A DNA stretch of 64,000 bases from a virus: positions 62,001 through 126,000 of the IMG/VR virus record IMGVR_UViG_3300027987_000212, one strand, 5' to 3'. Position 1 is the stretch's first letter, and each line of letters starts with the position of its first letter. The translations under genes were made by a program, and so were the position numbers. The notes below the pieces were generated by a model. It was not told the DNA's origin. It was given only the letters and a program-made list of their open reading frames with translations, and made no database searches. Below are positions 26,313 through 39,968 of this stretch, one piece after another.

Positions 26313-26924
26313 TCACCGACTTTGCAGAAACTTCTGCACTTTCTTGTAGCTACGCCGATGCTCCGGACACTGTCCGTACTGCTTCATTGCCGCCTTGTGC
26401 TCCTTGGTCACGTACCCCTTGTGCTGGTCAAACCCATACTGAGGGTACGTCCTCGCCAGCTGTATCATGACGCGGTCTCTCCGCACTTTCGCTAGAACGC
26501 TGGCAGCACTCACAGCCGGTACCAGCGCATCTGCGTCAGTCTGAAATGTGCACTCACGAAAGAGATGCTCCCATCCGGGCGGAGGCAGCCCGTCGATTAC
26601 TACTTGTGTGCCCGGTACCGCGGCTAAACCAAGCTGCTTGACCGCGAACATCAGCTCGTACAGTGCTCGGTGTAACCCTAGCTCATCTACCTCTTCCGCC
26701 GTCTTCTGCGCTGTCACGAGGTACACCGCTGCGGGGCCTATGAATTCTGCGAGTACGTCTTGTCGCTTTTGGTGAGCCTTTGTCTTCTTCGTATCGTGGT
26801 AGCTCTTCGAGTCTTTCACCTTCTCATGGGACCAGCCTGCAGGCATGACCGCTCCCCCGACGACGAGGGGCCCGGCACATGCGCCGAACCCAACCTCGTC
26901 GATACCCATTACAAAAGAAGCCAT
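26313..26924 (-). CDS. rnhB: Ribonuclease HII (203 aa)
   Basis: The RNase HII signature opens the protein: GIDEVGFGACAGPLVV with catalytic Asp9-Glu10. The third acidic motif is VVIDG, followed by the conserved VSAASVLAKVRRDR and the substrate-contact region YGFDQHKGYVTKEH. The enzyme removes ribonucleotides and RNA primers from DNA using Mg2+. Length is normal. ATG 26924 overlaps the preceding stop as TGATG. A phage copy probably helps process lagging-strand primers together with the ligase. Confidence 0.88.
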   Translation of the reverse strand: MASFVMGIDEVGFGACAGPLVVGGAVMPAGWSHEKVKDSKSYHDTKKTKAHQKRQDVLAEFIGPAAVYLVTAQKTAEEVDELGLHRALYELMFAVKQLGLAAVPGTQVVIDGLPPPGWEHLFRECTFQTDADALVPAVSAASVLAKVRRDRVMIQLARTYPQYGFDQHKGYVTKEHKAAMKQYGQCPEHRRSYKKVQKFLQSR

Positions 26925-27601
26925 CACGGTGATGCCTGAGTAGCCACAGTCTCAGGTGTTGGCACACTCCTACGGGTGAATGTACTTTGAATGACCTCTG
27001 CACCCTCTGCCGTCGTAAGCAACACTTGGGCAGAAGTAGCGCTTGGCGCCATCCTGACTTGCAGCACCAAGTCTCTCTGCACCAACATCTGCTTGCTGTC
27101 CACGTCGTCTGCTGGGTGGTGGCGACAAAAAGCTGTTCCGGTGGCGTAAAAATCGCAGCCACCTACCCGTACACCGTCGCCCGTCTTCACACGAAACTTC
27201 AAGTCGTACGGCGCCGGTGCCTTACCAGTACGACTCGTCCCAGATTCCTCTGCGAACAGCACAAATTCGGGTCCCCACTTAGTAGCCTCGCCTACCCACT
27301 CCGTACCGATGAAAGGTCCCCAGTCGTTTGCACAGGTAAATCCTGCACAAACCGACAGAGGAGGAGGAGGAGGAGGAGGGGGAGCTGCAGTCGTCGCTGC
27401 AGCCACCGGGGCAGCAACTACTGGGTAGATTTCCGTAGCTTCTACGGAAGCTTCTGTGAGTACCGCTCCCGTAGCATCCGCGGCCACGTTCGATACCGTG
27501 CTGCGTACTGCGGGTGGTTGGGCCAGTAAGTACCCTACAAGTAGCGCAGCCAAGACTGCAGCTGCCCATGCACCGTGCGTCAATCGTTGTTCTTTGGTCA
27601 T
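26924..27601 (-). CDS. Membrane-anchored protein with polyproline linker (225 aa)
   Basis: One transmembrane segment (WAAAVLAALLVGYLLAQPP) is followed by an Ala/Val/Thr linker, eight consecutive prolines and a ~130-residue domain with four cysteines (CAGFTC, GGCDFYATGTAFC) that may form disulfides. This suggests a periplasmic or surface domain held off the membrane. GGAGG lies 5 bases before ATG 27601. The proline run comes from a GGA-type microsatellite at 27360-27381. Confidence 0.6.
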   Translation of the reverse strand: MTKEQRLTHGAWAAAVLAALLVGYLLAQPPAVRSTVSNVAADATGAVLTEASVEATEIYPVVAAPVAAATTAAPPPPPPPPLSVCAGFTCANDWGPFIGTEWVGEATKWGPEFVLFAEESGTSRTGKAPAPYDLKFRVKTGDGVRVGGCDFYATGTAFCRHHPADDVDSKQMLVQRDLVLQVRMAPSATSAQVLLTTAEGAEVIQSTFTRRSVPTPETVATQASP

Positions 27602-27612
27602 GTTCACCTCCG

Positions 27613-28425
27613 TTAAGCTGCAGCCTGCCCCGCTATGAATAATTCATGTGTACGGGGGAATCGATGTTGAATGATGGTACTGACAGCATTGGCGTACTGC
27701 CGAATCTCCCACTGTGCATTGGGCGCCATGCGTAGCGTAAGGAAGTGCAGCCAGTTGCGAAGATTCGCAGAAGCGCGCATGCGCGAGTAGCGCCCAACCG
27801 TTAGAGCGAGCCTAGCCAACTCCTTAGGCACCCCAAGAGCCAGCCCACGTTGGTACAGCTGCTCCCCTTGCTGGTAATACGTGCTCAACTCGTCGAGCCA
27901 CCGCAAGGCGTCGTCCAAAGGCAACGTCTGACCAGGTCCGAGAAGATTCTGAGCCTGCTTGTTGGTACCCGCATTGAGCATCAGCCGGTCGACAGTTGGC
28001 AGGTAGTTCTCGTTCGGGAGTGGGACGTACCTAGCACTCATCTCGTTGTACGACTGAGTCCGATGTCTGTGCCACTCCCGAAATACCATGATGGGGGCAC
28101 TCACCTCGATTACCAGCCCGGCCATCTCGAAGGGGGTAGAGTGCCGATTGTCGTAGAGGTACTTGAGGAGTCGCTCGTCTCCCGGCTTGTCTGCGTCATG
28201 CTGACAAGCGCGTTGTTCTGATGTCGGGTAGTTCGCGGGGTCGAACCCCCCAGCTTCCCTCTCCACCATGCGCAAGCTGCACTTCGAGCAAGAGGGACCC
28301 CAACCAAGAAAGCCCTTGTTGGTACTCATTCGGGCAGCTTCGATGATGCGCTCATCGGAGCCCCAAGACTCGACAAACTGCAGGTACCCGTGGTCTAGCA
28401 GCTCAATTTTAGCTGGCTTCAACAT
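27613..28425 (-). CDS. thyX: Flavin-dependent thymidylate synthase ThyX (270 aa)
   Basis: The ThyX motif RHRTxSxNExSxRY is present at residues 120-133 (RHRTQSYNEMSARYVPLP). ThyX makes dTMP from dUMP with methylene-tetrahydrofolate, NADPH and FAD. The family's first helix (IIEAARMS) is followed here by a ~50-residue insertion with C46SKC49, C74 and H76 before DERLLKYL; the insertion could hold a metal and is unusual for the enzyme. GGAGG precedes ATG 28425. Confidence 0.9.
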   Translation of the reverse strand: MLKPAKIELLDHGYLQFVESWGSDERIIEAARMSTNKGFLGWGPSCSKCSLRMVEREAGGFDPANYPTSEQRACQHDADKPGDERLLKYLYDNRHSTPFEMAGLVIEVSAPIMVFREWHRHRTQSYNEMSARYVPLPNENYLPTVDRLMLNAGTNKQAQNLLGPGQTLPLDDALRWLDELSTYYQQGEQLYQRGLALGVPKELARLALTVGRYSRMRASANLRNWLHFLTLRMAPNAQWEIRQYANAVSTIIQHRFPRTHELFIAGQAAA

Positions 28426-29693: not shown

Positions 29694-30476
29694 TCAGATG
29701 TACCTTTTGTACTTGGCTTCTACACGCTTCTTCAGTCGAGAAACCTGGGAAGGGGACTTCCCCATACGTCGCGCAATCTCGCCTGTGGAGGAAACCACGG
29801 GCTTACCGTTACGTCCGAACATGTAGTCAAACACAGTTCGTTCGTCATCACTGTTCAATTCTGCAGGCAGCAGCGCCACTGTCTCCGCGTGCCGCACACT
29901 CTGCAGCGCAGTAGGGTCAGACTCGAAAGCAGAGGACAGTACGTCTGCTCGCTGCAATCCTTGGACTTCTTGAATGAGCTTGGGCGGCTTACCCAAGTGT
30001 GCTCCCAACTCTGCATGGGTCGGCTCACGACCAAACTGCTGCCGGAGCGTATCTGCCGCAACGTTAATCTGCCCGATTAAGTCCGACTTCCCCTCTGGGA
30101 TGTAGGCCATGTTTTGGTAACGCTTATTGGTTCGCGTCGCCCTGTTGATGTGGGTATTTACCCAAGTACGTAGCGTCGCCGGTTTGCCCCCGGGAGCTAC
30201 GTACGACGGGTCAAATCGCTGGAAAGCCTCGATAGCGTTAGACATCATGTTACCGCGCAGCGCTGCCTCTGACACGTTGGGCGCCTTTAGTCGCCCGATA
30301 GTTTTGTTGAAGTCCGAGTCGAACCGGCCCAACAATGCTCCCAGGTTCTGCTTAGACGGGTCCGCTTTCCACTCCTGCCACGCAGTAAAGTCCTGCCTAT
30401 TGCGCTCTGCCGCAGTCTTCTCCGTCTCGTCTAAGTAATCTTGTAGAGGGTCGTGATTGGTAGTCTCGTTGCTCAT
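29694..30476 (-). CDS. Sigma-factor-like protein (260 aa)
   Basis: Residues ~80-115 resemble sigma region 2 ('AIEAFQRFDPS', 'TLRTWVNTHINRATR'), ~145-172 region 3 (GREPTHAELGAHLGKPPKLI) and 205-258 region 4, with a helix-turn-helix TGEIARRMGKSPSQVSRLKKR. The order and spacing match the sigma70 family. It would direct RNA polymerase to phage promoters. Its own gene is preceded by the GGGGATAAG element and followed by a strong terminator, which allows autoregulation. GGAGG lies 8 bases before ATG 30476. Alternative: a sigma-derived repressor; region 1 is absent. Confidence 0.72.
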   Translation of the reverse strand: MSNETTNHDPLQDYLDETEKTAAERNRQDFTAWQEWKADPSKQNLGALLGRFDSDFNKTIGRLKAPNVSEAALRGNMMSNAIEAFQRFDPSYVAPGGKPATLRTWVNTHINRATRTNKRYQNMAYIPEGKSDLIGQINVAADTLRQQFGREPTHAELGAHLGKPPKLIQEVQGLQRADVLSSAFESDPTALQSVRHAETVALLPAELNSDDERTVFDYMFGRNGKPVVSSTGEIARRMGKSPSQVSRLKKRVEAKYKRYI

Positions 30477-32585: not shown

Positions 32586-34220
32586 CTACATCCTCGTGGA
32601 CGTAGCGGGCGTCTTCGTTGCTCCCGGTAGCGGTTTGCCGAATCCCACAGGCTTGGCAATCTGCGCAATGGACGGCCCTGGCGGCGGGCCCATCTTCAAC
32701 GTACCAACTGACTTGGCTTTGGAGAGCTGGCTTGCTGGCGAGAAGAGGCCGGCCTTCTTCTGCTTCTCGCTGGGAGGGCCCGCAGTCTTGAGCGGCGGTG
32801 CAGTAAATGGCGGCAGACTGCTGTGGTACTTCATGCTGGGAGGGTTCATGTCTCCGGAGAACTCTGACCGCGTGAAGCCCTCCTTCACCTTGGGTTGGGT
32901 TTCGCGCTGCTTGTCTCGTGCAACTCTACGTAGGGTGCCCGCACCCAGCGCTACTCCCCCAAGCATAGCCGCGCGTGCAGCGTACGAACCTAGTCCAGCC
33001 CCCATCGCGCGTCTAGCAGCTTTGAGCTCAGCTGGGCCTGCGCTAAGTCCTCGCAACGTCTTCAACCCAGTGTGTGAGGCACCCACTTCCGGTGCAAGTA
33101 ACGCCGCAGTACCAGCTGCCCCCAACCCCGCGCCGGCCAGTTGCGCTCTACGGTCGTCAGAACCAAGCAAGTAACCAGCTGTACCCGCTGCCCCAATCGA
33201 CGGTACCAGTGCTCGCGACAGCACATTTGCCGGCGTACTCTGTAGCAGCCTACCAACACGAGTCTTGTCTATAGCAGCATGTCCTAGTTCATGCGCCAAG
33301 GTAGCTGGAGAAGCCTTACCTACCACCGCTTTCGGACCGCCGGTACGCGTGTAGTAACCTCCTGCACCCAAGCTTCGGTCTAACTCTACTGGAACGGCAG
33401 CGCGGTCTACGAGTCTTCCAAACAAAGACTTTGTACCAGGCAGGGCACCCTCGTGTCGTACTGCACTCTCGAGTGCATCGTTAGCAGCATCAACACCCAT
33501 GTTGCCGCCTAGTACCAGACCGGCCGCGGCCAACTGCTTACCTCGGTGCGGCTCATTCGAACGCGTAGCATTAGCCAACTTCATCTCCGCTACCACCTGA
33601 CGTACTGCTGCAACTTTTGCCTGTAGCGGCTTCAACCCTTTGTCTGCGTTGAACGCCCCAACTCCCATCGTCTTCTTCAGACGCTGCACGGGGGTCTTGA
33701 ACCCTTGAGGCGTAAACCCCGACTGCGCACGCCAAGCATTGGGGTCAAACCAGCCCGCTGACTTCTCAAATCTCGAAGGCACCGCCTGCGAAGTCACCTT
33801 GAAGACGCGACAAGCGCCATCACCATCCCAGCTGCCGAGGTGTACCTTCTTGCCGCCGGGCGGGTCATCCTCGATAATCCCAAAGCTGTGCCCAACGTCA
33901 CCCACCTCACTGATTCGTGCTAAGAGCTTCTCTATAGCCTCCGCACCATCAGGGCTCGCCTCTATGGTTACGATAACGCGCGCCTGCGCAGCAAGCTTCT
34001 TCGTATCCAGCCTTCCTGGGTTGGGTGCCTTCACGTAGTCCTTCTTCGGACCGCTGTACTTCGCTTTCGCCGCCGCACGTCCCTCAGTTGTGCCGTACCC
34101 CTTTGGTGTCTTGCCCAGCTTGTGCGCTTGCTGAGTAGCGACGGCGAACGCCGTTGACTTCGACATGTCGGGGTTCTTGGCGAGCAAGTGCTTCGCCCTT
34201 TCATGAATCCATGCGGGCAT
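32586..34220 (-). CDS. Polyvalent protein with zincin metallopeptidase motif (544 aa)
   Basis: Residues 1-65 form a module typical of phage structural and ejected proteins (PAWIHERAKHLLAKNPDMSK, then TQQAHKLGKTPKGYGT). A middle region ~80-150 looks like an alpha/beta domain. The zinc-peptidase motif HELGH sits at residues 310-314 (LAHELGHAAIDK). Gly/Ala-rich hydrophobic stretches follow (~330-430), and the tail is Pro/Lys-rich. Polyvalent phage proteins combine such domains and are injected with DNA to act in the host; that role is inferred. It is the last gene of the tail operon. GAGGAGG precedes the ATG. Confidence 0.6.
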   Translation of the reverse strand: MPAWIHERAKHLLAKNPDMSKSTAFAVATQQAHKLGKTPKGYGTTEGRAAAKAKYSGPKKDYVKAPNPGRLDTKKLAAQARVIVTIEASPDGAEAIEKLLARISEVGDVGHSFGIIEDDPPGGKKVHLGSWDGDGACRVFKVTSQAVPSRFEKSAGWFDPNAWRAQSGFTPQGFKTPVQRLKKTMGVGAFNADKGLKPLQAKVAAVRQVVAEMKLANATRSNEPHRGKQLAAAGLVLGGNMGVDAANDALESAVRHEGALPGTKSLFGRLVDRAAVPVELDRSLGAGGYYTRTGGPKAVVGKASPATLAHELGHAAIDKTRVGRLLQSTPANVLSRALVPSIGAAGTAGYLLGSDDRRAQLAGAGLGAAGTAALLAPEVGASHTGLKTLRGLSAGPAELKAARRAMGAGLGSYAARAAMLGGVALGAGTLRRVARDKQRETQPKVKEGFTRSEFSGDMNPPSMKYHSSLPPFTAPPLKTAGPPSEKQKKAGLFSPASQLSKAKSVGTLKMGPPPGPSIAQIAKPVGFGKPLPGATKTPATSTRM

Positions 34221-34229
34221 AGCGCCTCC

Positions 34230-34628
34230 TCAAATACCAAGGGTTCTTCGGACGCGCCCGCGGCGATTGGCGGGCACATGTCCCACCAGCTCCTGCAAGC
34301 GCTGCTTCTCGGCGTTGTACTCGAGCCGGTGGCGCGCCGCCGGCATGAGGCCGCCAAAGATGACGCCCGTCGCGGCACCCCCCGCAACTTCACGAAGGTT
34401 GGGGACCAACCCGCGGGACAACTTCCCGGAGATGGCCCGATTCAGAAACCCCGCTGCTGGCCCAGCAACCGACCCCACGGCAGCCCCACGAAGTACTTGC
34501 TCTCGCGTCGGCGCCGAGTGCTCGAGGTCCCGCAGACGCTCCGCACTCTGCAGGATGTCCTGGGGAATCGCCATAGCCGCGCGCTTCTCCAGGGCAGCCA
34601 AGCACGCCCCGAATAGCCCCAGACTCAC
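34230..34628 (-). CDS. Small Gly/Ala-rich probable ejection protein (132 aa)
   Basis: The middle has membrane-like Gly/Ala stretches (VLRGAAVGSVAGPAAGFLNR, VAGGAATGVIFGGLMPAARH) flanked by charged helices. It is coupled by a GTGA overlap to the InPase gene and precedes the zincin gene, so the three are made together. Membrane-active, ejected role inferred from composition and position. Confidence 0.5.
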   Translation of the reverse strand: MSLGLFGACLAALEKRAAMAIPQDILQSAERLRDLEHSAPTREQVLRGAAVGSVAGPAAGFLNRAISGKLSRGLVPNLREVAGGAATGVIFGGLMPAARHRLEYNAEKQRLQELVGHVPANRRGRVRRTLGI

Positions 34629-36580
34629 ACCGACCCCACTGCCGGCGCAGCACGCCCCAGAAGACCCGCAGCCCGCCCAGCAAACTGACCCAGTCTCGGC
34701 ATCACTCGCTGAGCAGCCGTGCCGACCGCGTCCTGCCCGATGTGCCCCGCCGTCTCGCCCAGGGCAGAGAGGGCCGGCGCGAGCTTGCCGCCCAAAACCC
34801 CCGCCGCGCTCAGCGGGATGTGCGCCGCCGCCCCCAAAGCACCGACCGAGCCAATCTCGCCAACCAAGCCAGCCTTACCCGCATGTTGTACCATACCTGA
34901 CCCTATACGCCTGGCCACATTGGAGCCGGTACCCTGCAGCTCTTTTCCGACACCCCGAGTGAATCCCTCGATGGCGCCCCCAAGTGGTACCCCCAACGGG
35001 TTCAACGCCTTCTTCAAACCACTGGAGTGCTGAAGGTGGTGGCCAGCTGCATGCGCTGTCTCCCCCGCGACGCGGTGGGCGACTGACGTCGGACGAATCT
35101 GCCGAGCTACTGCGCTCTCACCCGCGCTCAGCCCCTTGGTGACGGGACCCCGGAGCATCGCGCCACCCTCCGCCAGCCCCTTCCCCAAACCGCCGTGCCC
35201 CCAAGCCCCTCGCAACTCTGCCGGGCGAGCAAACCGCGAAGCCAGTGACCGAAGGGCCTCGCGGAATGCCTCCTTGTCTTGTTCAGCAAGCTTGTCTAGC
35301 TCACCAAAGAAGCCCAAGTACCTGTCACCCGCGTGCGCTCGGTAGTCCGTAGTCACGAAGGCCATCTTACCTTCAGTACTGGGGGGAAGGGCACTGATGT
35401 CACTGAGTACTACGTGCGGCCCCTCTATGCGCACACGCTCAGCAGGGTTTGGGGAAAGGTTCTTGGTCGGCACGTCTCCCTGCTTAGCGTACTTGGATAC
35501 CTGTTGCGGCCCCGCTGATAAGAACGGGTCTGCTGGTACCGTAGCCGCGCTAGTCTGCCGTTCCTCCACGAAAGGCGCCGTACGCACGATGTCTCGGTCG
35601 GGTACATCGCCCCGACGCTTCGGCGGTGGACGCCTACCCTCTACCCTGCTCGGTTCTTCGCCCGCACCCCACTCCAGCAAGGCCTGCCCCGGCATCGCGG
35701 AGATTTTGACCAGCTTCTTCCCAGACGCTACCTGTTGCTTGAGAGAGTCCATGGACACACGCACCACCTTCCCAATGAGAGACGGGTCATCGTAGTGCTT
35801 CAGTATCGCCTTGCGGGCATCGTCCCGCCCGGCAAATCCAAGCATGACCGTGTCTTCGTCGTACTTCCCCGACGGCGTCTTCTGCCGAACCACGAAAGCA
35901 TCCGGCGCCGACCGGTCAGGCCCAACGTACGCATCGACCTCATCCCCATCTGCACCCTTCGTTCCGCGGATGTACCCGTAGGGTAGCTTGAACTTCGTCC
36001 GCCACTTGGAGCCGTCATCGTTGGTACCCTCACGCACGGAGCCTTTGCGGTTCTCGATGTCGACAGTGAGGCCCTGGAACTTCGTACGCCCTTGAAGCTT
36101 GAACCCATCCTTGTTAGTTCCCAAAGAGGACGCGTACTTCAAACTCCCATCAGAATTCTCGCCGCGCCGCTCCAGCAATCGACGCCAACGCGTTTGGAGA
36201 CTAGCAGCAACAGCTTCTTTACCTCTCTCCATCTTCTTCAGCTTGGTGTAGTACCCGGGGTCTTCCGTTAGGTGGTCCATCGTTATCTCTCGCGCCAAAG
36301 CTGGTCGACTAGTATGTTCACTCTCGACACGCATACCTTGACGCAATGATGCTGCGCTAAAGTCACCCGGCTTCTTCTTGTCCGCCAAACCTCCAGGAAG
36401 TAGGTCAGCACCTAGCTTCGGACTCACCTCCGACGCATCCGCAGTTACTTGACCCACCGAACGTTTGAACAAGGTACCCTCCTTATCCTTGCGGAGGAGA
36501 GTCGACACACGCATTGGTCTTCGTCCGCGCCGACTTTGGGCCAAGGTGTACTGTGTTTTCGACGCGGCGTCTTTGAACAT
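34625..36580 (-). CDS. Polyvalent protein with InPase-like domain (651 aa)
   Basis: Residues ~165-295 match the inorganic-pyrophosphatase-like (InPase) domain known from phage and conjugative polyvalent proteins: FQGLTVDIENRKGSVREGT, then LPYGYIRGTKGADGDEVDAY, with the metal-binding acidic cluster D-G-D-E-V-D, and KYDEDTVMLGF. The N terminus is basic. The C-terminal ~300 residues are Gly/Ala-rich helices typical of ejected proteins. Known family context suggests counter-defence or nucleotide/pyrophosphate handling in the new host. Start ATG 36580 follows AGAGG; it abuts the 82-residue gene. Confidence 0.65.
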   Translation of the reverse strand: MFKDAASKTQYTLAQSRRGRRPMRVSTLLRKDKEGTLFKRSVGQVTADASEVSPKLGADLLPGGLADKKKPGDFSAASLRQGMRVESEHTSRPALAREITMDHLTEDPGYYTKLKKMERGKEAVAASLQTRWRRLLERRGENSDGSLKYASSLGTNKDGFKLQGRTKFQGLTVDIENRKGSVREGTNDDGSKWRTKFKLPYGYIRGTKGADGDEVDAYVGPDRSAPDAFVVRQKTPSGKYDEDTVMLGFAGRDDARKAILKHYDDPSLIGKVVRVSMDSLKQQVASGKKLVKISAMPGQALLEWGAGEEPSRVEGRRPPPKRRGDVPDRDIVRTAPFVEERQTSAATVPADPFLSAGPQQVSKYAKQGDVPTKNLSPNPAERVRIEGPHVVLSDISALPPSTEGKMAFVTTDYRAHAGDRYLGFFGELDKLAEQDKEAFREALRSLASRFARPAELRGAWGHGGLGKGLAEGGAMLRGPVTKGLSAGESAVARQIRPTSVAHRVAGETAHAAGHHLQHSSGLKKALNPLGVPLGGAIEGFTRGVGKELQGTGSNVARRIGSGMVQHAGKAGLVGEIGSVGALGAAAHIPLSAAGVLGGKLAPALSALGETAGHIGQDAVGTAAQRVMPRLGQFAGRAAGLLGRAAPAVGSV

Positions 36581-36828
36581 CACATCCTCTTCAGGTAATC
36601 CTGCACACCTACCGCTATCTCTGCCGCACGACGTGGGTCACGCGTGGCTACATTGGTTATCTGCGTCAAGGCAGGTAAGTCTTGCGGCTGAAGACCTCGA
36701 GCAAGCGCTTGTCGTGTCAGAGCGCTCACAACACTGCTTGCCGAGAAGTGGTCAACATCGAGGGCTGCGGGAGGGATAGAGCTCATGCACATAGTTGTAC
36801 CACCCCAACTTAGTGCTGCGGAAGTCAC
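36580..36828 (-). CDS. Small hypothetical protein (82 aa)
   Basis: It may begin at GTG 36828, overlapping the hub stop (GTGA), or at ATG 36792, with GGGGTGG upstream. The C-terminal helix (PALTQITNVATRDPRRAAEI) is regular. It sits between the hub gene and the InPase gene. Function unknown. Confidence 0.5.
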   Translation of the reverse strand: MTSAALSWGGTTMCMSSIPPAALDVDHFSASSVVSALTRQALARGLQPQDLPALTQITNVATRDPRRAAEIAVGVQDYLKRM

Positions 36829-39800
36829 CCCAACAATCCACGAGAGAACAGCAAGGCAGACAAGTACGCCTGCACCTGTCGTTGCTTACGCCCACGCGTA
36901 TCACCACGCTGGGCAACTGTACTACCTCGCTTGATACCCAGCACGTTTTCAATATCTGGACCTACAAGCCCAAACAAGTCATCGTACGGACCGAATGCCC
37001 TAGAGTGGAAACCCTCGATGCCCGAAAGTACGGCTGAGCCGTCAGAGTTGAACACCAGGTCACTGGTACCGAGCATATCGACCATCGTCGCGATGGGCCG
37101 CCACGTGTATGCACGAATGAACTCGTCGACATCCAGCCGTTGCTGCCTCACGTAGGAGTAGGTCATGACCAAAAACTCGGCGGCTTGTTCGATGGAGGAG
37201 CCCTCCTCTAGCTGCAGCAGTACCGGAGCGTCCCGTCTTGGGTCATCCCCAGCAGCCGCAGCAGCCGCCTCGTCTTGGGCTTTCTGCGCCGCTTCTGAAA
37301 AGCCGCTCAAACTAGCGCCAGTCGGGTCGGAGATAGTGTGCGGGTCTGTGATAGCCCCAATCCCGAACAGCGTGTTGTACGCCTCACCGATTTTTGCGGA
37401 GGACCAAACATCTCCGTACCACCCTGGCCGCAAGTACTCCTCCATCGGTAGGTCGACTTGCTCTTGGCGGTACCGCGGCACCTCCTCTTCCACCCGATAG
37501 GCGTTGAAGACCACATCACGGTCACGGTCCCCAACAATTGCCTCCACATCTGTAGAGCCCAGGGCGCTAGCAGACGTAGGAACACCAACGGGCACCAGCG
37601 GCACCTTGAACTGCGTCGTGTCTGCCACAGTCTTTCGCCGCCTACCAAACAAGGGTAAGCGTGCGGTACCTTCACGATTTGCCGCTGCAGAACCTGAGTT
37701 AGCCTCTCGTATGTACTGTAGCGTAACATCTGTAACGGTAGTGATGATACCGCCTTTCGGCCCCAACGAACCAACTGCGGGGGCAGATAGCGCAGCGATG
37801 TCCGTAGCACGTAATGCTGCCTGGTCTTGTTTCTTGTACGCAGAAGTAGACGCCTCGAACGTACCCAAGAACTCGACAGTTTCGTCTAACTGCCTCGGGT
37901 AACTGATGTTAATCTCCGTCCTGCCACGTTCCTCAGCCTGACTCACGGCATGCGAAACCTGCGTGAAGTTACCGAGAAAGTGCGTCCCCAGCAACTGGAG
38001 ACGCTCGGTTGTCGGGAAGCCCCGCTTCTCCGCTAGTTCATTGTGTGCAGCAATGACCTCTGCATCGACATACTTGTCGATAATCAAACCTGGACACCCA
38101 CAAGCAATGTACGGGTTGAACTTCCCGGCCACGCGCATCTGCCGCGCATTGAATCGATGCTTGAAGTAGAGGAAGTTGGTACTACGCTGAGCAAACCCAA
38201 CCTTCGTCGGATTCTGCTGAGTACCGGAGCGTGCTGCAAATACGTTGAACTCCCCCATCTTCTCGAACACGGGCAGAATGCCCGTGAATAGCTCATGGTC
38301 GAGCAAGTCGTTGCGAAGAACATCACGTAGGTTTGTCTGGTCCTGCTTCAACGACCGCCCTTGCGGCGCAAAGTAGAACTTGTCGAAGAGGAAGTCCTCC
38401 CCAAAGAACTCGTCGTTCGTCTTCAACAAAAATCGAGTAGGCTCCTGCAACCACATTCTCTGGTAGACAATCTGGTCGTAGTCCTCGGGGAATAGCACGT
38501 TGCACCGTGGCGGAGCCCCAAACCAGATGTCGGGCCTGAACACTTGCTGCATCAACCTAGCCGGCTCTTGCTGCCCCGCGACCGTAGTAGGTACCGTGTA
38601 CTGGGCAAGCCGCAACAAGTGCCCCTGAGCTGTGCTCAATGAATCGACTAGTCTGCTCTGCTCAGCACTGGGGGTCGCCAAGCTCCACCGGTTAAGCTGC
38701 GTCAGCGCCTTACCCAGTGCCGTAGCTGCTTGACTGAGAAGGCTCTTCGCCCCCGCGGGTGCGCGTCGACTCGCTGTAGTTGCCTGCGCACGGTTAATCG
38801 CTGTCCTGACGCTACCTACCCTGCCGCGCAGAGTAATACGTAGGGACTCTGACCCGATAGCTACCACCTCTGGTGCGGTCAGGTCTGACTGCAGTGTGCC
38901 GATGATGTCGCCTAAGGACTTTGCCGCGTTCTCCCCCAGTACCGCCAGCGGAGCTAATGTAGGGTCATCGGAAAGCTTCTTGCGTGCAGAACCACTAACT
39001 GCGTTGTCTTTCCCCGGTACGTACCGTGGGCAAGGTTGAGCATACATCTCATGGAAGATGATACCGGAGAGTGCGTTCACTGCTTGCCGGAAAGAAGTCT
39101 GCCCGCCTAGGCCACCCAGCAGTCGGCTAAACAATCCCGAATAGCCCTGTCGCGCAAGTATCCTACTCGAGGTGGGGTCTTCCTCGATAGCGCCAATCAT
39201 CTGCGTCAAATGCAGGCGCAGCTCAGCCAACGAAAAGAAGATGTTCTGCCCAGCAATCTTCTTCACGCTACCACCATTGCCACGGACCTGGTACACGCCT
39301 CCGATAGCTTCCAGTAGCCTGATGATGCCAGCGGACAGCCCCTTCATCTTCGGGTACGTGTTACACCCTCCTGCAGAGGCGAGCCGCGTTAGCACCTCCC
39401 CTTTGTTGGACAAGAAGTCGGTAAAGAGGTTGGTCGCCCCTCCCGAGAATACCGCCTTGATGCCTGGCCCGAAGATGCCCGTATTGCTCCACTGATACGC
39501 GTAGTCCCAGTAGTTACTAAGGTCGGCGCACTGCAGTACTAAAGAACGTTGCGACTGCGCCTTAGTCCACTGAAACCCGATGACTTCTCCTACGAACAAG
39601 CACTTATACCGGTCGTTGTTCAAGTCAGACTCAGCATTGACTAGCGCCTGCTGTACATCCGACGGCACCTCGTTCCTGTACGCCAAAGGGTCAAAGCCCT
39701 GTAGGGTCTTCTCATGCCGGGAGGGGCTCTGCTCCGACCGCCCTCCCATCCCTTTGCGTACCAAAGGACTCTTCTGCTCGTACATGTCCAAGAAGAACAC

Positions 39801-39968
39801 ATGGACTAACGTACGTGGGAGAAACCTAGTACCCTCAGCCAAGGGAGGTATTTGTATGGAACAGACGATAGGACTGTTTGGCGCCGTCTGCACGTTGGCC
39901 GCCACAATAGGCACTTCAATGCCTTCAAGAAACAGCCTAAGCCTAAGTCGTTGTCCGTAAGCAGTCAT
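36825..39968 (-). CDS. Probable baseplate hub / tail tip protein (1047 aa)
   Basis: The N-terminal ~170 residues are strand-rich with 'LFVGEVIGFQWTKAQSQRSL' and 'LQCADLSNYWDY', a pattern of gp27-like hubs. Around residues 480-640 the sequence 'RCNVLFPEDYDQIVYQRMWL', EFNVFAARSG and FNPYIACGCPGLIID again fits hub proteins that cap the tube. Helical inserts lie between. It follows the tape measure and a 625-residue tail protein in the operon, the usual hub position. It is large for the family because of a C-terminal ~300-residue extension. Confidence 0.62.
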   Translation of the reverse strand: MTAYGQRLRLRLFLEGIEVPIVAANVQTAPNSPIVCSIQIPPLAEGTRFLPRTLVHVFFLDMYEQKSPLVRKGMGGRSEQSPSRHEKTLQGFDPLAYRNEVPSDVQQALVNAESDLNNDRYKCLFVGEVIGFQWTKAQSQRSLVLQCADLSNYWDYAYQWSNTGIFGPGIKAVFSGGATNLFTDFLSNKGEVLTRLASAGGCNTYPKMKGLSAGIIRLLEAIGGVYQVRGNGGSVKKIAGQNIFFSLAELRLHLTQMIGAIEEDPTSSRILARQGYSGLFSRLLGGLGGQTSFRQAVNALSGIIFHEMYAQPCPRYVPGKDNAVSGSARKKLSDDPTLAPLAVLGENAAKSLGDIIGTLQSDLTAPEVVAIGSESLRITLRGRVGSVRTAINRAQATTASRRAPAGAKSLLSQAATALGKALTQLNRWSLATPSAEQSRLVDSLSTAQGHLLRLAQYTVPTTVAGQQEPARLMQQVFRPDIWFGAPPRCNVLFPEDYDQIVYQRMWLQEPTRFLLKTNDEFFGEDFLFDKFYFAPQGRSLKQDQTNLRDVLRNDLLDHELFTGILPVFEKMGEFNVFAARSGTQQNPTKVGFAQRSTNFLYFKHRFNARQMRVAGKFNPYIACGCPGLIIDKYVDAEVIAAHNELAEKRGFPTTERLQLLGTHFLGNFTQVSHAVSQAEERGRTEINISYPRQLDETVEFLGTFEASTSAYKKQDQAALRATDIAALSAPAVGSLGPKGGIITTVTDVTLQYIREANSGSAAANREGTARLPLFGRRRKTVADTTQFKVPLVPVGVPTSASALGSTDVEAIVGDRDRDVVFNAYRVEEEVPRYRQEQVDLPMEEYLRPGWYGDVWSSAKIGEAYNTLFGIGAITDPHTISDPTGASLSGFSEAAQKAQDEAAAAAAGDDPRRDAPVLLQLEEGSSIEQAAEFLVMTYSYVRQQRLDVDEFIRAYTWRPIATMVDMLGTSDLVFNSDGSAVLSGIEGFHSRAFGPYDDLFGLVGPDIENVLGIKRGSTVAQRGDTRGRKQRQVQAYLSALLFSRGLLG

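Follow-up and report, generated by a model that had tools for sequence, protein, structure and literature searches.

The stretch analyzed here, referred to as the window, comprises 64,000 nucleotides (G000:C1:62001-126000) of the viral record IMGVR_UViG_3300027987_000212, which is 185,327 bases in length. The subject of this report is a group of genes located on the minus strand of the window between a tail hub gene and a gene for a sigma-like factor. This locus is probably a variable island of virion cargo in a contractile-tailed phage of ~185 kb, encoding proteins that would be produced late, directed to the head, trimmed by a protease and ejected. Cargo equipped with a capsid-targeting leader is a known kind of virion component; what is new is a consensus common to unrelated cargo across a clade. 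The N-terminal peptide [AGS]-F-x-D-E-L-x-K-I-A, referred to below as the tag, recurs in about 40 uncultured phages on unrelated proteins encoded either in the island or around the head genes. Many of the tag-bearing phages have genomes of ~190 kb.

The tag is far more frequent than chance predicts. A DNA-pattern scan of IMG/VR revealed 73 instances of F.DEL.KIA in 58 stretches, where roughly 2 are expected by our own arithmetic. Most instances lie a few residues past a start codon and are followed by unrelated sequence. The residue preceding the phenylalanine, which lies outside the pattern, is alanine, serine or glycine in 105 of 110 cases. Across 46 records about 110 tag hits were found versus one with the reversed pattern, and a comparison with scrambled motifs gave 37 observed tags versus a mean of 0.02. 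When the tags were removed from 103 tagged proteins, the remainders fell into 67 BLAST clusters, 55 of which are singletons. Tagged proteins include DarB-like SNF2 helicases, a C92/NlpC-like amidase, and zincins of the family to which the 544-residue island protein of the window belongs. A single record, G041 (L189, L197, L211), encodes at least seven tagged proteins, many of which open with MN[HS]FE[FY]GFFDELxKIA and then diverge fully; this is the clearest signal-peptide-like set seen. A T4-like (L/I)xE cleavage site within the tag was considered and dropped, since the residue after the phenylalanine is not restricted to leucine or isoleucine. A text search of the open-access literature found no mention of the tag sequence. 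A short tblastn search of cultured phages found none either, a search too insensitive to count as absence.

The genomic position of the tag is also consistent. The gene order conserved in 11 records mapped piecewise is terL, the protease-type gene p545, the major capsid protein (MCP) gene, sheath, tube, tape measure, hub, island, sigma and baseplate, with the DNA polymerase gene on the strand opposite to the late genes. This order bears out the sequence-only reading in its placement of the island within a tail/hub operon. All 38 tags in the mapped records are on the late strand; several stand directly 5' of the MCP gene or between the MCP and sheath genes, and others stand near the hub. A loose form of the tag was sought in 24 loci; the gene strand holds 44 occurrences, all of them behind the hub, and the other strand holds one. 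Of the 21 searched tagged contigs with a length of 90 kb or more, 18 have a hub homologue, and therefore the tag marks one broad clade. Genes with an InPase domain lie within 2.5 kb of a tag in 11 of 24 cases versus 1.6 expected, a count whose hub-locus cases come from related phages and are not independent; outside the hub locus the count is 6 of 19 versus 1.4 expected (p=0.0015). A GTDB scan with the hub recovered a 3-kb contig (L231) from a Deltaproteobacteria metagenome-assembled genome, which carries the hub end and a FLDELEKIA-tagged gene and provides a weak hint of the host.

The hub gene (36825-39968, minus strand, 1047 aa) is the conserved anchor 5' of the island. A search of 50,697 phage records returned no match to the hub, but IMG/VR yielded 24 relatives with 45-55% identity. 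The gene set 3' of the hub is variable among these relatives. InPase is present in 21 of the 25 records, but just seven of the 21 have it within the hub locus; elsewhere it is encoded by a solo gene or by a portion of a long open reading frame (ORF). In G002, a 1332-aa frame runs from InPase through an internal FVDELQKL to an SNF2-like start. In some phages DUF5661 belongs to the InPase protein, and in another to a protein with a different leader, MPxWIH. The variable arrangements of InPase, DUF5661 and SNF2 amount to domain shuffling within one cargo island.

Distant cultured relatives provide a second line of evidence. Searches with the MCP and the portal identified Salmonella phage Arash (OQ632216) and Vibrio phages D69, D148 and D181. 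Arash has homologues of the portal, MCP, protease, RNA polymerase, sigma factor and hub, the similarity of the window's hub to Arash gp8 being distant (E=0.003). The motif [ILMVF]-x-K-x-A, which includes the core of the tag, was counted in eight genomes, of which two were covered only partially, with expectations derived from composition. It occurs 533 times in late proteins versus 297 expected (1.8-fold), and 107 times in early proteins versus 127 expected. Permuted orders, or arginine or glutamate in place of the lysine, gave ratios of 0.8-1.1 in late proteins and thus no excess. Taken genome by genome, the late-protein excess has Poisson p values of 1e-3 to 1e-12 in seven of the eight genomes and is not significant in G045, the early-protein excess is significant in none, and the late-protein excess barely changes when the tags are left out.

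L-x-K-x-A is densest in the head proteins of Arash and D69. In Arash, nine [ILMVF]-x-K-x-A sites are found in gp220, eight in gp223 and six in gp225; gp218 and gp220-gp225, encoded in the head-gene region from gp218 to the MCP, were all detected in particles by mass spectrometry (MS) (PMC10585845). Around the site, Arash and D69 favor [DE]-x-[LM]-E-K-x-A-[SA], which is nearly the D-E-L-E-K-I-A-A of the tag. Moreover, p545 has a homologue in Arash, gp222 (E=4e-31), and gp222 in turn gives a match to a family of head maturation proteases (E=2e-6). The G045 orthologue of the MS-detected gp221 opens almost directly with EEFLKTAG, aligned near NMEKSAG of gp221. The simplest reading of these patterns is that L-x-K-x-A may be a maturation cleavage site, and the tag a cleavable head-targeting leader. 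The coverage values of the Arash proteome were rejected as evidence of cleavage, because 100% sequence coverage is listed even where a protein has only 2 unique peptides.

In the proposed mechanism, the proteins of the island between the hub and sigma-factor genes would be made late, and a short N-terminal leader would direct them into the assembling head. The head maturation protease would trim the cargo at L-x-K-x-A sites, and the cargo would be stored in the virion and ejected together with the DNA. The leader would be [AGS]-F-x-D-E-L-x-K-I-A in relatives and would have decayed to related forms in the phage of the window. There the InPase cargo would have merged with another cargo, rich in Gly/Ala, and the leader of the latter would survive internally. 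Once inside the host, the InPase domain may hydrolyze pyrophosphate or a nucleotide-like phosphoester, and the zincin may cut host or phage proteins. The domains, the variability and order of the island, the tag with its statistics and strand bias, and the motif excess in late proteins are observed; that the cargo is packaged in the head, cleaved and ejected, and that it acts on pyrophosphate, nucleotides or proteins, is what we infer. Loading of the island proteins into virions is suggested by the shared leader, the types of cargo, and the occurrence of L-x-K-x-A in the head proteins of cultured relatives. An anti-defense role of the island proteins is possible.

In the window, ORFs encoding 82, 652, 132 and 544 aa follow directly on the hub gene on the minus strand. 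The consecutive junctions of the 82-, 652- and 132-aa ORFs overlap by 4 bases each, and therefore these ORFs are translationally coupled. The 652-aa protein (34625-36583) combines several disparate domains: a reduced leader, DUF5661 (residues 80-120, 36224-36346; PF18905, E=8.3e-11), an InPase domain with a DGDEVDA metal-binding signature (residues 161-285, 35729-36103; PF18823, E=5.7e-38), an internal tag-like site, and a Gly/Ala-rich C-terminal half (34628-35284). The protein begins with MMFKDAASK, where relatives read F-x-D-E-L-x-K-I-A-A-S-K. An internal degenerate tag form, GFFGELDKLAEQ, with the tag-like and cleavage-like site GFFGELDKLA (residues 424-433, 35285-35314), marks the junction of the InPase and Gly/Ala parts. 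In L105 the counterparts of these two parts are encoded by two separate tagged genes.

The InPase-like domain had been proposed from the sequence alone and is upheld by both profile and predicted structure. The match to PF18823 scores 130.3 bits versus a curated cut-off of 26.8. The structure predicted with AlphaFold 2 (AF2) has a predicted local distance difference test score (pLDDT) of 84, and its top PDB matches are all family I pyrophosphatases (VIA Z up to 7.3). A family I pyrophosphatase (OB) fold is thus a firmly supported prediction. In an alignment of 10 InPase homologues (A3), D63, D68, D93 and E94 are invariant; these residues were mapped onto E. coli pyrophosphatase by eye. A second InPase of another subfamily (YGFIPKTLGGDGDGLDVF), solo and 206 aa long, is encoded in the same record outside the window (G000:C1:49772-50131, L002).

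Among solved chains, the InPase domain is nearest in sequence to the C-terminal region of the portal of the Pbunavirus Pa193 (gp19, PDB 9b41), a virion protein with the same domain (E=3.6e-23). There InPase is fused to the portal, whereas here it is fused to an island protein. The Pa193 domain, at residues 630-756, lies in a C-terminal region that has no density in the published map (PMC11042391). The InPase protein of the window could likewise be only a structural or assembly accessory without a catalytic role in the host, as may hold for the Pa193 portal. We consider this somewhat unlikely, as the DGDEVDA signature and the invariant Asp/Glu positions are kept in the 10 aligned homologues, and the domain is found elsewhere alone or beside SNF2 helicases.

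The island has features in common with several known systems. Polyvalent proteins of phages, whose injection is predicted, likewise feature InPase and zincin-like metallopeptidase domains and have their genes next to those for virion components (Iyer et al. 2017, PMC5512222). In the window, however, the InPase and the zincin belong to different polypeptides, and the passages of that work consulted here describe no short leader common to unrelated cargo such as that of the relatives. The sequence-only reading had described the island as a polyvalent-type mixture of InPase and zincin domains; with the two enzyme domains on different polypeptides, only the 652-aa protein is clearly multidomain, the 544-aa protein (leader and zincin-like part) being less clear in this respect. 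In T4, internal proteins of diverse kinds begin with a short capsid targeting sequence, comparable to the tag of the relatives; it is a propeptide that is removed by the prohead protease (PMC5694885). The tag differs from it in sequence (F-x-D-E-L-x-K-I-A), its cleavage is only presumed, and it occurs on dozens of unrelated proteins in a clade without a close cultured member. In P1 the N-terminal 30 residues of DarB suffice for capsid targeting, and this signal is likewise N-terminal and on SNF2-type helicases (PMC9024508). The Dar proteins, however, share no consensus by BLAST (PMC9024508), whereas a clear consensus is seen here among unrelated proteins.

An alternative destination for the cargo is the tail tube or hub instead of the head; hub or tape-measure proteins would then recognize the N-terminal peptide, in the manner of extracellular contractile injection systems. 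Contractile injection particles have N-terminal loading peptides, and the island lies directly 3' of the hub gene in the relatives examined. However, tagged genes also flank the MCP gene and occupy the MCP-sheath interval in G022, G028, G045, G057 and G070, and the core of the tag matches a motif concentrated in head and scaffold-type proteins. Loading into the tail is therefore unlikely. It is decidedly unlikely that the tag is a binding helix for a phage RNA polymerase, a membrane or another intracellular partner of unpackaged proteins that act late in the cell: the tag could form an amphipathic helix, but SNF2 helicase, zincin, amidase and InPase are cargo types predicted or known to be virion-delivered, and the L-x-K-x-A core is common to the tag and to the MS-detected head proteins of Arash.

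Several observations weigh against the delivery of head-loaded, tagged cargo proposed here. Tagged genes adjoin tail genes as well as head genes, and therefore a tail-lumen destination is possible. The strict tag is absent from the entire phage of the window, G000. Tag-like forms in its 652-, 132- and 544-aa proteins are consistent with the leader model, but the counts in relatives deserve more weight, since these forms were recognized by comparison and by eye. Arash also differs from the clade: only one 96-aa gene lies between its hub and sigma genes, so that the cargo island is nearly absent, and no strict tag was seen in the part of the genome that was read. The virion proteomics used here is that of the distant Arash, whose list of 116 proteins may include carry-over, according to its authors (PMC10585845).

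The remaining island proteins vary in how closely they resemble tagged cargo. The 82-aa protein (36580-36828, minus strand) is a homologue of a small family that is F.DEL.KIA-tagged in relatives G003, G016 and G022. The 132-aa Gly/Ala-rich protein (34230-34628, minus strand) has the degenerate N-terminal tag FGACLAALEKRAA, in the form ACLAALEKRAA, where relatives read ACLDELQKLGA. Gly/Ala-rich stretches of the island proteins, which had been called membrane-like, reach 42-52% Gly plus Ala in 40-aa windows. Their composition is thereby confirmed, but with top 19-residue Kyte-Doolittle means of only 1.3-1.5 the stretches are mildly hydrophobic and resemble membrane segments only weakly. PHROGs and NCBIfam gave no match for most island proteins.

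The 544-aa cargo protein (32586-34220, minus strand) consists of a leader and a zincin-like domain. The leader, MPxWIHxRAxHxLAKNPxM (residues 1-75, 33996-34220), is up to 72% identical in relatives, while the remainder of the protein differs. Another recurrent leader, MPF[KR]SxxQRRFxWAxxPxIAxRW, takes the place of MPxWIH on cargo in L238 (963-3381), L090 (14971-15717) and L187 (5627), and in L238 it stands ahead of a zincin. In the 544-aa protein a candidate maturation site, RFEKSAG (FEKSA, residues 151-155, 33756-33770), separates the leader from the zincin part. The zincin-like domain (residues 249-483, 32772-33476) contains HELGH at 310-314 and a conserved Glu at 378. A single-sequence search of viral contigs and phage records with the 544-aa protein found no match, and the protein was tractable only through the hub-defined relatives. 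Seven homologous domains, 19-34% identical to it, complete a family of eight in which the H, E, G and H are invariant. All eight have HE[LI]GH followed by ExxA[ST] with an invariant Glu, the ligand pattern of gluzincin metallopeptidases, and a Tyr is also kept; a chance HExxH was ruled out by this recurrence. In profile searches, four of the eight members weakly match Zn_peptidase_2 (PF04298; best E=0.0012) and two match M48 (0.002). The 544-aa protein itself matches neither profile, only DUF4344 at E=0.43. The AF2 model of the domain is poor (pLDDT 64) and a PDB search gave no convincing match, which does not imply a different fold. The HELGH metallopeptidase first suggested from the sequence is thus supported as a conserved family and motif, but not as a fold.

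The island is flanked by the gene for the sigma-like factor (29694-30476, minus strand; PF04539, E=8e-11), a homologue of Arash gp10 (blastp E=5e-19), which was detected in virions (PMC10585845). A late promoter had been placed ahead of the island, but a scan for sigma70-like promoters gave 4 matches versus 5.4 expected in shuffled sequence, which is at chance and lends that promoter no support; the scan is not conclusive, as it is limited by the phage having its own RNA polymerase and sigma factor. A phage-encoded multisubunit RNA polymerase is found at L083:16406-19972 (G000) and in L119 (G003:100655-107308). In G003 the beta-like and beta'-like parts are in one 2217-aa frame; in Arash they are encoded by two genes and were found in virions. 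Genes 3' of the sigma gene are RNase HII-like (26313-26927) and ThyX-like (27613-28425), named by sequence appearance only.

Finally, we lean towards a broader conclusion about this large clade of ~190-kb myoviruses, which is essentially uncultured: a single N-terminal peptide, F-x-D-E-L-x-K-I-A, would act as both address and cleavage signal, would be transplantable between proteins, and would bring dozens of unrelated ones into the particles. The full set of injected effectors of such a phage may then be readable from its genome. If this is true, InPase, zincin and DarB-like helicases would share one delivery route, and the tag would provide a testable signal for the loading of proteins into phage heads. 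Virion-delivered proteins, including candidate anti-defense factors, would then be predictable from sequence alone.

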